Part shown: in pieces, positions 2,122-13,031 of the stretch | Numbering within the stretch: position 1 is the first letter of the stretch | How the letters are laid out: each line of letters opens with the position of its first letter | Virus record (IMG/VR): IMGVR_UViG_3300021424_000015 | Coordinates: 1-64,000 of that record | DNA length: 64,000 nt | From: a virus | Reading direction: 5' to 3' (one strand) | Made by a program: the position numbers and the translations under genes | The notes under the pieces: generated by a model | Databases searched by the model: none | Seen by the model: only the letters and a program-made list of their open reading frames with translations | Told to the model about the DNA's origin: nothing

Positions 2122-3633
2122 ATGCCACATTTTGCAAGTAAAAAACAATATCGCATGATGATGGCCATTTTGCATGGAAAGAAAAAAGGCTCTACTGCAA
2201 GAGGAGACAGTGGTCCTCCAAAAAGTGTTGCCGAAGAATATTCAGGTGATAGTAAAAACATCCCAGACAGTAAAGGCAAAGAACACAAAGGTGGAAAATG
2301 GGATGAACATAAGCAAAAAAAGCATAGTGAAGCAAAAGAATATAAAAATAAAATTAAAGAAAAATTAGAACAACAAACTAAAAAATCAGAAAATAAACCT
2401 GGTTTTGGTGTGGTTGTAGTAGATGAAAACAATCATGTGCTAATGGGCAGGCATACTAAAACAAATGAACTTGCTTTTCCAGGCGGCTCTGCAGAAGATG
2501 GAGAAAAACCAGAACAAACAGCAGCAAGAGAACTTGAAGAAGAATCTGGTTTAAAAATACACCCATCTAAACTTCAACCTTTAGATGACAGAACTTTTTA
2601 TATAAAAATAAACTCTAAAGATCCAGATGTCTATTTGTCAAATACTTCTGAGTTGTCAGATGTTGGTTTTAAAGATCCATATAGTATAGATATGTCAGAA
2701 GTAAGAGATTGCTGTATTCCATCTTTAAAGTCATGGATAAAATCATCACACCAAGATGATATTAAAAAATCTGAAATAATAGATAGAATACACAAAGAAG
2801 AAGATCAACTTAAACTTCATCCAGTTTTTGATATGCCAATTAGAGATTGTTTAACTTTAATTGCAAACGCTTTACACAGACACATAGATCCGCATGTTTC
2901 AGGTCTTGATGAAAATGATGTTGCTAAAATTCCATTAAGTTCTTATGTTGTAACTATTAGAAAACACAAAGATGGAAAGAAGTCTGGACACATAGATGAT
3001 GGTGGAAAAACAATACATAGATTTATGGGGTTGGAAGACAATGAAATGACAAAAGACATAATGAGTCTTTTTGAATGGTTTGATTCTAAACATATGCATA
3101 AGATAAAAATAATATCACCAGAAAAATTATCTGATGACACAATAGAAGATGGAATGTCAAAAATGATCGATAACTATCGTTCCTATAATATAGGCGATAT
3201 TTATGATGAGATGGAGAATATTCGTCAAGAGATACGGCAGGGAAACGCTGTAGATTTACAGCAAGCAGAAGCTAAAATTTTATCTATATTTGATAAAATG
3301 GAAGATAGACTTTTAAATGTAGAAAAAAAACATAATTCTTTAGCAGGAAGAGCTGGAGATGAAATAGATCAAATTGAAGCCAAGTTAAGAGAACTTCAAT
3401 CAAAAATAGAATCTATAAACAAAAAACCCTCAGTAATAGAAGCAATATCATCAGATAACATAAATCCTAGTAAGATATCAAAAGAATTTTACCCTTACTT
3501 ATCAAAGCCGATGGTTACAATAAAACCAAATGGTCATATTACAATCCATTTTAAAGAAGATTGGACAGATGATGAGAAGTCTAATTTTCTTACAGATCTT
3601 AAAGCAAAGACTTTAAAGAAAAAGAAAAAATGA
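2122..3633 (+). CDS. Virion-associated protein with internal Nudix hydrolase domain
   Basis: 503 residues in three parts. Residues 1-40 contain a basic segment (FASKKQYRMMMAIL, then GPPKSVAEEY) of a kind found at the N-termini of phage head-maturation and structural proteins. Residues about 92-165 are a Nudix domain with a perfect Nudix box at 122-144 (G-x5-E-x7-RELEEESGL), implying hydrolysis of a nucleoside-diphosphate-linked substrate; the substrate cannot be inferred. Residues about 345-430 look like a helical coiled coil, followed by a small C-terminal beta segment and a poly-Lys end. SD AAGAGG precedes the ATG. Its stop overlaps the next start as ATGA. Location among neck genes suggests the enzyme is packaged or assembled with the virion, but a cytoplasmic role is possible. 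Confidence 0.8.
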   Translation: MPHFASKKQYRMMMAILHGKKKGSTARGDSGPPKSVAEEYSGDSKNIPDSKGKEHKGGKWDEHKQKKHSEAKEYKNKIKEKLEQQTKKSENKPGFGVVVVDENNHVLMGRHTKTNELAFPGGSAEDGEKPEQTAARELEEESGLKIHPSKLQPLDDRTFYIKINSKDPDVYLSNTSELSDVGFKDPYSIDMSEVRDCCIPSLKSWIKSSHQDDIKKSEIIDRIHKEEDQLKLHPVFDMPIRDCLTLIANALHRHIDPHVSGLDENDVAKIPLSSYVVTIRKHKDGKKSGHIDDGGKTIHRFMGLEDNEMTKDIMSLFEWFDSKHMHKIKIISPEKLSDDTIEDGMSKMIDNYRSYNIGDIYDEMENIRQEIRQGNAVDLQQAEAKILSIFDKMEDRLLNVEKKHNSLAGRAGDEIDQIEAKLRELQSKIESINKKPSVIEAISSDNINPSKISKEFYPYLSKPMVTIKPNGHITIHFKEDWTDDEKSNFLTDLKAKTLKKKKK

Positions 3634-7639: not shown

Positions 7640-8188
7640 ATGGCAGATAAGAAGACTAGTTTAATAACAGGTAGTAATGCTAAAATCAAGATCAACGGCG
7701 TTACTCTTGCATACGCAACAGATGTTCAGTACGATGTTTCGGTTCAAACAATTCCAATCGAAACAATGGGACGCTACGAAGTGCTGGCAAATGAGCCAAT
7801 CGCAACTATCGTAAGTGGTTCGTTTTCTGTTGTTCGCTATACTAAGGCAGCAGCAGATGGAAAAATATCTGGAGCAGCTGCCAGTGGCAACGGTGTTGGA
7901 AATTGGAAAGCAGGTACTGGAGTTGGCTTACATACACACTTCAATCCTGCTGACATACTGAAATCTGCAACAGTTGATATCGAACTTTTTAGAAAAACAC
8001 AGAACGAACCAACCGCAGCAGAAGGCGTAGAATCTTTTAAGAAAATACTAGATGCTAGATTGACTAGGATGGGTGGAAGTGTTAACAAGCGCGGTATTCT
8101 TATGGAATCTTTCGCCTTTGTTGCTGAAGCAATTCAGGACGATTCATTTACTCACGGCAAGTCCGGTGAAAACGATCTTTCAGATTAA
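7640..8188 (+). CDS. Tail tube protein, copy 1
   Basis: 182 residues. It opens with SLITGSNAKIKINGVTLAYATDVQYDVSV and then a VSGSFSVVRY strand, a compact beta fold typical of myovirus tail tubes, and lies directly after the sheath gene. SD CTAGGAGAAG precedes the ATG. It is the first of three tandem paralogues (7640, 8199, 8774); having its own upstream promoter region, it is the most likely main tube subunit. Confidence 0.85.
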   Translation: MADKKTSLITGSNAKIKINGVTLAYATDVQYDVSVQTIPIETMGRYEVLANEPIATIVSGSFSVVRYTKAAADGKISGAAASGNGVGNWKAGTGVGLHTHFNPADILKSATVDIELFRKTQNEPTAAEGVESFKKILDARLTRMGGSVNKRGILMESFAFVAEAIQDDSFTHGKSGENDLSD

Positions 8189-8198
8189 GAGGCAATAG

Positions 8199-8765
8199 GT
8201 GGCAGGTAAGAAGCCGTTTTTTATAACAGGTTCTAACTGTAAAATAAAAGTAAACGGCGTAACTCTTGCTTATGCTACTGATCTTTCTTATACTGTTACT
8301 ATAAATCACGCACCAGTTAAGGTTCTTGGCGTTTATGAATCAGACACTATAGAACCATTGTCCTATTCCGTATCTGGCAGTTTTACATTAATTAGATATA
8401 TAGACAGTGCCATTGACAGTCTTGGATATGTAAATGGAGCAAATGGATACGGCAACGGTGTTGGTTCTTTTGCTCAACCTTATCAATTCACAAGACCCGA
8501 TTTATTAAGAACAGATGGTAAAGCTGATCAAAGCGCCAACCCAGCAAAACTTGGAGATGCAACTGGTTTTGATATAGAGATGTATCAAAAAGTACCAAAC
8601 AATTCACTAGGAATTGCAAAAATAAGAAATTGTAGAATTGTTGCTATAAATTCTCAAATATCTAAAAGATCTCCAATGATACAACAATTTCAATTTGTTG
8701 CAAATTACCTAGATGAAGATAGTTATATAGCAGAAACTTCGGGCCAGGGGCAGCAGTTCTCTTGA
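8199..8765 (+). CDS. Tail tube-like protein, copy 2
   Basis: 188 residues with a GTG start (8199) ten bases after the previous stop and a weak SD (AGAGGC). ITGSNCKIKVNGVTLAYATDL and VSGSFTLIRY align directly with copy 1, and the C-terminal QFQFVANYLDEDSY matches copy 1 SFAFVAEAIQDDSF. It could be a second tube subunit, a tube-initiation ring or a tip protein. The central region differs, so the copies are old and probably not interchangeable. Confidence 0.8.
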   Translation: MAGKKPFFITGSNCKIKVNGVTLAYATDLSYTVTINHAPVKVLGVYESDTIEPLSYSVSGSFTLIRYIDSAIDSLGYVNGANGYGNGVGSFAQPYQFTRPDLLRTDGKADQSANPAKLGDATGFDIEMYQKVPNNSLGIAKIRNCRIVAINSQISKRSPMIQQFQFVANYLDEDSYIAETSGQGQQFS

Positions 8766-8773
8766 GGTGTTAG

Positions 8774-9394
8774 ATGAGTAAAAGACGGGGATTTGATAGG
8801 GGCACTGGTTTTTCGGGATTTGCATCTCGAACTGCTGAGAATTTGGTATCTTCAGTAGGTACTATTAATTCTTTAAAACCTACTGCTAAATACATGTCAG
8901 GCGCAAGAGCTGTTTTAAAAGTTAATGGAAGCATTGTTGGTTTTGCTATGCAAATATCTTGGACAATTAACACAGAGCAAGTAGAAATAAATACAATAGA
9001 TGATTATATGCCATATGAAATAGCACCAAGAAGAATTTCCGTAAATGGAACAATTGGAACATTTGTAATTCCTGGCAGATCACCAACTGCTGAATTAATA
9101 CAATCTGATAGTCTTAGTTTTTTATTTAATAAATACATAACTATAGAAATAAGAGATTCAGTAACGGACAATATGCTATTTAAAACAAATAAAGCAGTCA
9201 TCACATCCTCATCGTCTGATCTAAGGGCTGAACAACTTGGATCTACTACTTTACAATGGAAGGCAATAGGTTGGGTTAATGAATCTGCTCCAGGTTTACC
9301 AAGTGGATATAACGATGCATCTGATAAGGCATCTGCCGATCCAAGTGGGATTATAGATAAATTAAAAAAGAAAATTCCAAAACTTCCATTTTAA
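8774..9394 (+). CDS. Divergent tail tube-like protein, copy 3
   Basis: 206 residues. After a 40-residue N-terminal extension, YMSGARAVLKVNGSIVGFAMQISWTI and ISVNGTIGTFVIPG follow the same beta pattern as copies 1 and 2 at lower identity. The C-terminus is a basic linker (DKLKKKIPKLPF). Its distinct ends suggest a specialised ring at one end of the tube, such as a baseplate-proximal adaptor. It closes this transcription block; the next gene has its own -10. Confidence 0.7.
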   Translation: MSKRRGFDRGTGFSGFASRTAENLVSSVGTINSLKPTAKYMSGARAVLKVNGSIVGFAMQISWTINTEQVEINTIDDYMPYEIAPRRISVNGTIGTFVIPGRSPTAELIQSDSLSFLFNKYITIEIRDSVTDNMLFKTNKAVITSSSSDLRAEQLGSTTLQWKAIGWVNESAPGLPSGYNDASDKASADPSGIIDKLKKKIPKLPF

Positions 9395-9399
9395 ATTGG

Positions 9400-9405
9400 T
9401 ATAAT
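9400..9405 (+). promoter_or_regulatory. Putative -10 box (TATAAT)
   Basis: GGTATAATTA lies 32 bases before the ATG at 9432, with CGGAGG between. It would drive the tail chaperone, tape measure and baseplate genes. Confidence 0.5.
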
Positions 9406-9431
9406 TATTTAGTAAATTACGGAGGCTTGTT

Positions 9432-9800
9432 ATGGATCTTCCAAAGCGTGAAAAAACTTTTTATTTTGATTACGAAGGCGAATCTGGCTTTAGATATGAA
9501 GGCAGTTTCACTGTTAAGTGTAGATTGACAGTTGCTGAAAAATATGCATCTGAATTAGAAAAAACTCGCTTACAAGGCGACACTTCAAATCCATCTGCTG
9601 GATTGTCTGGTATGGCAATTGCAATATCCACTCTTCGATCTCGTGTTGTAGATGGTCCAAACTGGTGGAAACAAGGACTTGGATTAGGTATAGAAGACGA
9701 GGACGCATTGGTTGAACTATATTCAAAAGTTGAAGAAATAGCCGCAGAATGGGCTTTAGATGTCAAAAAAACATCTAAAGAAGAAAAATTGGGAAACTAA
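9432..9800 (+). CDS. Tail assembly chaperone, short (zero-frame) product
   Basis: 122 residues, SD CGGAGG. It lies just before the tape measure gene, the standard place for the frameshifted tail assembly chaperone pair (lambda G/GT, P2 E/E'). The zero frame ends at TAA 9798-9800 immediately after a GGGAAAC slippery heptamer, so part of the ribosomes should continue into the -1 frame (see 9791-9828). The protein has no enzyme motif; the family normally coats the tape measure protein while the tube assembles. Confidence 0.85.
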   Translation: MDLPKREKTFYFDYEGESGFRYEGSFTVKCRLTVAEKYASELEKTRLQGDTSNPSAGLSGMAIAISTLRSRVVDGPNWWKQGLGLGIEDEDALVELYSKVEEIAAEWALDVKKTSKEEKLGN

Positions 9801-9828
9801 CTGACGGAGATCTTGACGAAATCTCCGT
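9791..9828 (+). promoter_or_regulatory. Programmed -1 ribosomal frameshift signal
   Basis: All three canonical elements are present. The slippery heptamer GGGAAAC is at 9791-9797 in the right phase (G GGA AAC). A 6-base spacer (9798-9803) holds the zero-frame stop. A perfect 8-bp hairpin follows, ACGGAGAT (9804-9811) pairing with ATCTCCGT (9821-9828) around a 9-base loop. The -1 frame is open from 9779 to 10243. Confidence 0.92.
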
Positions 9829-10246
9829 TTATCAAGCAATAGACAATTTAATAGCTAAAAATGCTAGAGATGTCGATTCTGAAAAGGGTCGACTATTATT
9901 TTTAATGTCCTGGTGGAGTAAGACCTATAATCGCCCATTAAAAGATCCAATTTTACAAACATATACATTAGAAGAACTTTATTATGAATATCGCGATAAA
10001 ATAGAAAGAGATATCGCAGTAAGAGAAATGTCAGAAAAAGAAACTGATAAGATAGAACAAGATAAGATAGATGATGCAATGGCATGGGCAGACGCTGAAG
10101 AACAAAAAGAAAAAGAGCAAACAGGGGAATATTCTGTATCTGAAAATGACATAGAATGGATGAATGCTCAAATGAAAAAAGCCAAAGAAGAATTTGGTGA
10201 AGATTTTGGTGAAGATATAAACGAGGATTTTGGAAATGGCAGATGA
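9797..10246 (+). CDS. Tail assembly chaperone, -1 frame extension
   Basis: This frame has no initiation site of its own at its left end; it is reached by the -1 frameshift at 9791-9797, giving a fusion of 122 + 149 = 271 residues. The extension begins LTDGDLDEISVYQAIDNLI and continues through MSWWSKTYNRPLKDP. The ATG at 9905 lies inside this continuous sequence and has no good SD, so a stand-alone 113-residue protein is unlikely. The end is strongly acidic (GEDFGEDINEDFGNGR). The fused product would link tube subunits to the tape measure as in lambda GT, which is inference by analogy. Its stop overlaps the tape measure start by 11 bases. Confidence 0.85.
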   Translation, partial: LTDGDLDEISVYQAIDNLIAKNARDVDSEKGRLLFLMSWWSKTYNRPLKDPILQTYTLEELYYEYRDKIERDIAVREMSEKETDKIEQDKIDDAMAWADAEEQKEKEQTGEYSVSENDIEWMNAQMKKAKEEFGEDFGEDINEDFGNGR

Positions 10247-13031
10247 TAATGACATTAAAAATAAACTAAGATCAAGACTTCAAGATGTCAATACTCTGCC
10301 ATCTAGATTAGCATCTGGTGTTGAAAGCATATTTGAAAGATCACAAGTAAAAACAAAGGCTCAATTAGATCTTGAGGCTGGTCTTGAAAGAACTAGACAA
10401 CAAAGAGCACAAGTAAATTCATTAGCATCATCTACATATGATGCAGATGAAAGAGAATCATTAAGAAGAAGACAGGTGGCATTAGTAAGGAGAGAAGCTA
10501 GGGCAAATGAAAGAATAGAAACTGAAGAATTTAATAGAACAAGTGCTGCAAGACGCGAGGCATTTCAAAAAACTTCTTCAATGCTTTCTTCAGAAAGGCT
10601 TGAAAGAGAAACTGGCAGAATTGGAAGAGCACCCGAGGCAAGGTTTCTAGCTGGACAATATGCTCAAGGTATGGCTCAATCTGAATTAGAAAATCGTAGA
10701 TTTCAAAACTTAAAACATCAAGAAGAAACTGCAGCACAGATAACTGGATTATCTGCAAATATTGACGACCCTAGATCTGCAGCAAGAATGAGATATCTTA
10801 CTGGTAAATTATCTAGACAACAAATATATGGCGGTCAGATTTCTGCAGCTCTTTCTCTTCAGAGAGAAATGGGAATAGATGATATAAGTGTAAGAAGACA
10901 ATCCGCGTCTATATCTGAGAGAATAAATAAAGAAACAATGCGAGAAGGAATTTCTTCTGATATTCAATCTGGTCAAACTAGATCCTTTAAAGAAGAATTA
11001 GATACATATAGAAAATTACGAGATGTAGTAAAAGAAACTGCAGAAAAAATATCTTCTCTTGGCGAAGTTAGTGCTGATTTAAGACAAACTCAGCAAGATC
11101 AAGTTAGAGAACTTGAAAAACAGGGTGAAAAAGTTAGACAAATGAAAGCCGCTGGAATGGGTGGAGACGGCGGTGGTTTAAGTACTATTGAAAAAATTCA
11201 ACTTGGCGCTGCAGGTTTTAAAGCAGCAGCAGGCATCGCTGGTTATGCAGCTGTCGGTTCTGAAATAGAGCAAATGAGAGCAAGAGCAGGAATTGCCGCT
11301 GTAATGAATCAGCAATTTTTTGATCAAAAAGCAGCATTATCTGGAGATATGAGCGCGCTATTAATGACAAGTGGCGGAATAAATGCAGCTGTCCTAAGTG
11401 AAGCTGAAAATTTCAGAATCTCAGCTCGTCTTGCTGCTGGCGCTGATATTGCCGGCAGTGCAGTCGGAACAGTGGCAGATGTTGTAGGAAACGCAAGGAC
11501 AGGAAACGCTGGTGCTGCTGTTAGCTCAGCTATATCTGGAGTAAGTGATGCTGCAAAGGGAACTATTGCATTATCAAAAGGAATAACTCAAACAAATGCT
11601 GCCTTAGAGGCATACTCAGCAAGAAGACAACTGTCTCAAGAAGAAATAAGAATAAGATCTCAATCTATGCAGGATTTTTACAATGATAGAGTTTCTGCAT
11701 ATAGAGCCTCTATTGGAGCGGGTGGCCTTTCTTCTAGTCTAATGGACGAAATGACTAATGCTCAATTTGCTGCTGGAATTGGACATATAGATTTAAATAG
11801 ACAAAAATCATTATTTTCAATGGGTATGGGGGCTGGAGGAAGAGCCTTTAGATCTGGTGCACAAGAAAGAGCTGCAACTATAAAAGCAGCAGCAGAATTT
11901 GAAAGAACTGGTATTGGAACAGCAGAACAATACATGAGCGGTCTTGATAGAATGGTCTCAGCTGGTGGATCTAGAAAAGATTTAGAAGACATAATGAGAA
12001 ACGCAATAGCAGCTGGCGTTGGAGATGCTGAGAATATAAACAAAATGGTTGAATCTACTGCTAATTTAGCAGAATTAATAAACCAGGGTAGAGGAATAGG
12101 TGGAGCTGCGACCGCAGCCCAAGCGTTGACATTGGGTCTTCAATCTTATCAAGGTACATCTTTAGAAGAAGAGCAAAAAAGACAAGGTGTTGCATATGGT
12201 CTTCAAAACCTTCAATCATTAACTGGTGGATCTGGGTTGAATCTAGAAACAGTATCTCAAATTGCTTATTTAAACAAAGCAATTCCAGGTCTTAAAGGAA
12301 TGGGGCTTCAAAATGTTGTAAAACTTGGAGCAACAGGTGCAGCTGATGTTCTTAGTTTAATAAGAAGTAATAAAGATACTAAAACAAAAGCCAGATTATT
12401 GGAAGAAAGAGGGCTTTCTAGTGCTTTTATAAATGAAAGTGGAGATATTAGACCAGATGCTGAAGATACGGCATTTAAGATTTTTCAATCTGAAATTGCA
12501 GGCGTTGCAGGAGGAGCAGGGGCTGTAATAAGTGCACCAGCTAGTACGGCAATTTATAAATTATTAAATGCTAAAGATTTTAATCAATTTAAAAACATGT
12601 ATCGCAAAATGCCAGGCGAAGCAAAAGATTATTTAACTGGTGCTGGAGTTAATAGAGCAGCAATGGAAGGTGTGTTTGGGGTTGGTTTTGGAGCAACAGG
12701 TCCAATAGGTGAGTCTCCAACTCCATCTGGTAATTTTGCACAAGCTCAAGAGATATTATCAAAAAGCACTCAAATGTCTATAAAAAACATGGAAGCTTTT
12801 GGTAATTCTTTGCAAGAAATAAATGAAAGAATGAAAAAAGTTTTAAGTGAATTTAATCCAGAGCAATCTTTTTCTAAAACACAACAAGCAAAAGAAGCCA
12901 TGCATCTTGATGTTAAAGAGTTTAATAATTCTGTAATTGATTTTAAAACTGCTGTTAGTGTTTTTGCTAAAACCGTTGGATCTAAAGGCACTGAACAACC
13001 AGATTCAGACAATCCTGCTAACTGGAGATAA
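10236..13031 (+). CDS. Tail tape measure protein
   Basis: 931 residues from the ATG at 10236 (GAGG at 10223-10226); an in-frame TTG at 10230 is less likely. Long, mostly alpha-helical, with Arg/Glu/Gln-rich coiled-coil stretches (residues 1-310), a hydrophobic Ala/Gly-rich zone (about 315-480) and an Ala/Gly-rich second half. The position after the frameshifted chaperone is diagnostic. Tape measures set tail length at roughly 0.15 nm per residue, so a tail of about 140 nm is expected. No peptidase or lysozyme domain is visible. Confidence 0.9.
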   Translation: MADDNDIKNKLRSRLQDVNTLPSRLASGVESIFERSQVKTKAQLDLEAGLERTRQQRAQVNSLASSTYDADERESLRRRQVALVRREARANERIETEEFNRTSAARREAFQKTSSMLSSERLERETGRIGRAPEARFLAGQYAQGMAQSELENRRFQNLKHQEETAAQITGLSANIDDPRSAARMRYLTGKLSRQQIYGGQISAALSLQREMGIDDISVRRQSASISERINKETMREGISSDIQSGQTRSFKEELDTYRKLRDVVKETAEKISSLGEVSADLRQTQQDQVRELEKQGEKVRQMKAAGMGGDGGGLSTIEKIQLGAAGFKAAAGIAGYAAVGSEIEQMRARAGIAAVMNQQFFDQKAALSGDMSALLMTSGGINAAVLSEAENFRISARLAAGADIAGSAVGTVADVVGNARTGNAGAAVSSAISGVSDAAKGTIALSKGITQTNAALEAYSARRQLSQEEIRIRSQSMQDFYNDRVSAYRASIGAGGLSSSLMDEMTNAQFAAGIGHIDLNRQKSLFSMGMGAGGRAFRSGAQERAATIKAAAEFERTGIGTAEQYMSGLDRMVSAGGSRKDLEDIMRNAIAAGVGDAENINKMVESTANLAELINQGRGIGGAATAAQALTLGLQSYQGTSLEEEQKRQGVAYGLQNLQSLTGGSGLNLETVSQIAYLNKAIPGLKGMGLQNVVKLGATGAADVLSLIRSNKDTKTKARLLEERGLSSAFINESGDIRPDAEDTAFKIFQSEIAGVAGGAGAVISAPASTAIYKLLNAKDFNQFKNMYRKMPGEAKDYLTGAGVNRAAMEGVFGVGFGATGPIGESPTPSGNFAQAQEILSKSTQMSIKNMEAFGNSLQEINERMKKVLSEFNPEQSFSKTQQAKEAMHLDVKEFNNSVIDFKTAVSVFAKTVGSKGTEQPDSDNPANWR

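Follow-up and report, generated by a model that had tools for sequence, protein, structure and literature searches.

A predicted −1 frameshift joins G and T of a putative tail assembly chaperone pair in a contractile-tailed phage, with probable internal T starts in related loci

Does the open −1 frame that overlaps a short open reading frame (ORF) behind the tail tube genes of this virus encode a protein of its own, or is it the second part of a fusion made by programmed frameshifting? The locus lies in a 64,000-nt stretch of DNA, analyzed as a whole and called the window, which comes from a virus record of 83.6 kb in IMG/VR. A tail sheath gene lies near the site (PHROG 279 match, E 2e-34), and the gene order around it is sheath, three tube-like genes, the zero-frame ORF G, the −1-frame ORF T, and a 933-aa ORF. 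The latter is probably the tape measure gene, as judged by its length and position only. Between the tube genes and the putative tape measure gene, the window features two ORFs, of which the downstream one overlaps the other in the −1 frame. The three tube-like genes stand in tandem at 7640 to 9394; the first two are 37% identical, the third is more distant, and all three match PHROG 3776 weakly and are retained in nearly all relatives.

All elements of the site lie on the plus strand. G extends from 9432 to 9800, encodes 122 aa, and carries the Shine–Dalgarno sequence GGAGG at 9421 to 9425, 6 nt before its ATG at 9432. Its 3′ end reads TTG GGA AAC TAA, with the slippery heptamer G_GGA_AAC at 9791 to 9797 in the X_XXY_YYZ phase of tandem slippage. 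The zero-frame stop TAA (9798 to 9800) abuts the 3′ end of the heptamer and opens the 6-nt spacer TAACTG (9798 to 9803) that leads from the heptamer to a stem. The 5′ arm of this stem, ACGGAGAT (9804 to 9811), and its 3′ arm, ATCTCCGT (9821 to 9828), are complementary at 8 of 8 positions and enclose a loop of 9 nt (9812 to 9820). In the −1 frame, the nearest upstream stop occupies 9776 to 9778, so that T opens at 9779, and it closes with the stop at 10244 to 10246. A first-pass annotation had described the in-phase GGGAAAC, the 6-base spacer with the zero-frame stop, the 8-bp stem with its 9-base loop, and a −1 frame running from 9779 to 10246, and all of these coordinates were reproduced. The junction that it gave, KLGN followed by LTDGD, is also correctly derived from the sequence: the predicted GT junction reads ...EEKLGN-LTDGDLDEI..., and the predicted peptide across 9797 is LGNLTDGDLDEISVYQAIDNLIAK.

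Folding of the RNA from 9798 to 9850 yields −11.1 kcal/mol (z = −2.45; 2 of 200 shuffles are equally good) and adds the pair G9803·U9829 to the 8-bp stem. No known Rfam element is matched within 9400 to 10300. The heptamer alone is common, with three occurrences in the 64-kb window versus 4.1 expected. Three sites on both strands of the whole window combine an in-phase XXX(AAA/TTT)N with long 0 and −1 frames that overlap and with a zero-frame stop close by, and a stable hairpin is present only at 9791 (−10.7 kcal/mol versus 0 and −2.2 at the two others). The arrangement of heptamer, hairpin, and overlap at 9791 is unique within the window.

The best explanation, to which a probability of roughly 95% is assigned, is that G and T form a lambda-type G/GT tail assembly chaperone pair of a contractile-tailed phage, with GT produced by a −1 slip on G_GGA_AAC ahead of the hairpin at 9804 to 9828. 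Most ribosomes would terminate at TAA 9798 and release the 122-aa G. A minority, delayed by the hairpin, would slip by −1 on the heptamer, with both tRNAs re-pairing on GGG AAA, and would resume reading at CTA 9797 to yield a 271-aa GT fusion that ends at 10246. By analogy with lambda, G may coat the tape measure protein, and the T part may recruit tube subunits. The occurrence and the rate of slippage as well as the functions of G and GT are inferred; all evidence is computational.

Relatives of the locus bear on each of these elements. Scans of IMG/VR and GTDB contigs gave 94 distinct G–T loci, some of them near-copies, and all 94 have their T domain in the −1 frame relative to G. A candidate slippery site precedes the −1-frame T domain in 46 of them. 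In 40 of the 94, it is an in-phase GGGAAAN within or adjacent to the overlap (25 GGGAAAC, 13 GGGAAAA, 1 GGGAAAG, and 1 GGGAAAT); the six other candidates are CCCAAAC (L153 and L208), AAACCCT (L091), GGGGGAA (L143), and GGGGGAG (L034 and L085). GGGGGAA is a motif reported throughout the SEA-PHAGES frameshifts (PMC10885494). The codon preceding GGA ends in G in 40 of 40 heptamer loci, versus a background of 17%, while its amino acid varies (CTG, TTG, GAG, CAG, TCG, GTG, AAG, GCG, and ATG are seen). The Gly codon within the heptamer is GGA in 40 of 40, versus a background of 20%. As judged by these sequences, the heptamer codons are under selection at the nucleotide level.

A stimulatory structure downstream of G–T slip sites is frequent but not obligatory. 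Of the 45 frameshift loci scored here, 43 have a hairpin that starts 2 to 11 nt past the heptamer. The median hairpin energy over these 45 loci is −10.7 kcal/mol versus a shuffled mean of −1.6, and in 39 of them no more than 3 of 60 shuffles do equally well. Stem sequences differ widely across the clade of the window; five of seven pairs show changes in both partners, 95% of alignment cells are paired versus 69% when shuffled, and covariation amounts to 0.71 versus 0.23—a value matched by 0 of 500 shuffles, although the alignment is anchored on the stem and, hence, leans toward structure, which makes the covariation supportive rather than independent proof. Covariation is weak in the clade with the GGAGAG stem, and the argument therefore relies on the covariation in the window clade and on the energies compared with shuffles. 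Elements, phase, conservation, and stem covariation are observed or computed for this locus. The conservation of heptamer and stem, proposed by the first-pass annotation as a check, is borne out by these counts, and its reading of the site as a −1 frameshift in a tail assembly chaperone is strongly supported by the phase, heptamer, stop, and hairpin that recur in diverged relatives.

The shape of the stimulator allows for a second reading, namely an H-type pseudoknot instead of a plain hairpin, in which CUUGA in the loop (9812 to 9816) pairs with UCAAG at 9833 to 9837. The two five-base runs can pair in the window sequence, but by inspection this complementarity is lost in L005, L006, and L007, near relatives that keep the hairpin, making a pseudoknot improbable. 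The sister loci L034 and L085 carry neither a canonical heptamer nor an internal start; GGGGGAG is their only upstream candidate, no adjacent hairpin was found near their G stop, and they are weak cases of frameshift loci.

T might instead be a gene of its own with its start at ATG 9905 (9905 to 9907), with heptamer and hairpin present by chance or in some other role. This ATG is the first ATG, GTG, or TTG in the open −1 frame, and a mechanical ORF caller outputs 9905 to 10246. It has, however, no Shine–Dalgarno sequence at the proper distance, and its column in the alignment holds Met in 9 of 45 frameshift loci and in 1 of 38 others. The conserved residues of T begin well upstream of it, initiation there would cut through helix 28–43 of the predicted T model, and 38 of the 45 frameshift loci lack any ATG, GTG, or TTG from the point where the −1 frame opens to the T domain. 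On these grounds, the gene from 9905 is most likely an annotation artifact—a mis-annotation that the first-pass annotation had anticipated. Selection on heptamer and stem speaks against a separate gene as well, and this reading is considered very improbable. The gene model is corrected to a single 271-aa GT product in place of an orphan ORF from 9905.

The remaining relatives follow a different pattern. In 48 of the 94 distinct loci, among them L052, L066, and L097, neither GGGAAAN nor a shared slippery site is present. The −1 frame of these loci is open through the codon pair xxA-TGG, where TGG encodes an invariant Trp of G, and a −1-frame start codon overlaps this Trp codon—ATG in 47 loci and GTG in one (L075). 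Codon statistics cover the 83 loci classified first, 45 with a frameshift and 38 with an internal start; the tests treat the loci as independent although they are related, and it is the effect size and coherence that carry the argument. At the Trp, the −1 frame reads ATG in 37 and GTG in 1 of the 38 internal-start loci, versus ATG in 18, GTG in 19, CTG in 5, and TTG in 3 of the frameshift loci (Fisher 7e-9). The codon before the Trp varies in the internal-start group (GAA, CAA, AAA, TTA, CTA, GCA, and TTG) and ends in A in 37 of 38. Three codons upstream of the Trp, Glu is encoded by GAG in 32 loci and GAA in 5, versus 88 to 160 elsewhere in G (3.6e-9); GAG or GGAG thus sits five bases before the internal ATG. 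Pairing with the anti-Shine–Dalgarno sequence is stronger in this group, with a median of −6.6 versus −2.3 kcal/mol (p 8e-12). The ATG of L052, L063, and L066 directly adjoins the −1 stop TGA, which rules out any earlier shift. As an alternative −1 slip site for the internal-start group, A_AAA_AAG occurs in a few loci only, and in 8 of the 38 there is no X_XXY tetramer between the Trp and the stop.

Internal initiation might also be considered for the window itself, given that the 48 related loci carry an ATG or GTG with a Shine–Dalgarno sequence within G for T. The window does feature a −1-frame ATG at 9749 over the corresponding Trp codon (TGG, 9750 to 9752), but this frame (9749 to 9778) runs for nine codons into the −1 stop at 9776 and cannot start T, and no other ATG, GTG, or TTG opens T before 9905. 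Internal initiation in the window has next to no probability, and the −1 slip on G_GGA_AAC is the preferred reading here. Taken together, the sequences make it quite likely that this is one chaperone family in which the strategies of T expression have been swapped: the window lineage would make a G–T fusion by −1 frameshifting, and 48 of the 94 loci would start T internally.

If this holds, T is a free protein in the internal-start lineage, and the covalent G–T link is dispensable there. In lambda, a physical link between G and T is regarded as necessary. No report of a swap from frameshifting to an internal start in tail chaperones was found in the open-access papers searched. With both strategies side by side on a homologous gene pair, the need for covalent fusion becomes testable; the family allows for asking whether a small quantity of T suffices for tails or whether they require the G–T fusion at its particular ratio, and how evolution adds or removes a frameshift signal. 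In a quick tree of G and T with the columns of the trait itself removed, one change separates the strategies (SH-aLRT 92). A careful tree needs two changes, with a bootstrap 5 to 95% range of 1 to 3 and one change in 38% of the bootstrap trees, and does not resolve a single change of strategy. Midpoint rooting places frameshift loci to either side of the root and thereby suggests frameshifting as the older strategy and internal initiation as the derived one, provided that this root is correct. Four heptamer loci (L065, L082, L083, and L094) have a −1 frame that is also open at the conserved Trp, with ATG at this position in L083 and L094 and TTG in L082; they are possible intermediates between the two strategies.

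The designation of G and T as putative tail assembly chaperones rests on relatives, predicted fold, and position. Tube genes lie immediately upstream of G in both the frameshift and the internal-start group, and the order tube–G–T is conserved. The G and T of the window have no convincing Pfam or PHROG family match, and tblastn of both against 50,697 phage records found no sequence relatives. Two tail assembly chaperone families are matched weakly by members of the G alignment, PHROG 1038 by 7 of 69 (best E 8e-4) and PHROG 25000 by 5 of 69 (best E 1e-3), but neither is matched by the G of the window. The AlphaFold2 model of G (pLDDT 92.9) matches the fold of the tail assembly chaperone of Bacillus phage JL (E 1.2e-4, probability 1.00) and also the annotated one of Lactobacillus phage 521B; a search of solved structures with the same model gave no match. 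Standard profiles miss the putative chaperones of this phage lineage. The closest named sheath is that of Myxococcus phage Mx1, where no G/T pair was recognized among the annotations downstream in the stretch examined.

Compared with known systems, the chaperones of Bacillus phage JL and Lactobacillus phage 521B are the closest annotated folds to G among predicted viral proteins, yet they share less than 21% identity with it. The Herelleviridae phages Eldridge and LysYB1 have their second ORF in the +1 frame relative to the first, in contrast to the −1 frame in the window. The overlap at the chaperone position of LysYB1, a Lysinibacillus phage (OP628075.1, locus L222), contains at 3040 to 3048 the sequence TCC_TTT_CGT—known from influenza PA-X as its +1 frameshift motif—and the annotated GTG start at 3047 falls within it. 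The lambda-type G–T pair is another close model. As far as the review PMC5009743 relates the work of Xu et al. 2004, lambda gpG/gpGT and the G–T frameshifts of long-tailed phages feature a −1 overlap, as does the window. The short ORF before the tape measure gene and a heptamer of the G_GGA_AA- class are likewise shared, and the low-rate fusion of a second domain has its predicted counterpart in the window. In lambda, G and GT occur at about 30:1, with G coating the tape measure and T recruiting the tube protein; GGGAAAC and GGGAAAG are documented G–T shift sites, and GGGAAAC is also listed for the archaeal virus HCTV-1 (PMC5009743). The frameshift mechanism itself is well known, and the window adds another predicted instance in a lineage that differs from the lambda-type pairs: its G and T have no detectable sequence similarity to named phages, and a clear downstream hairpin is conserved throughout its frameshift relatives.
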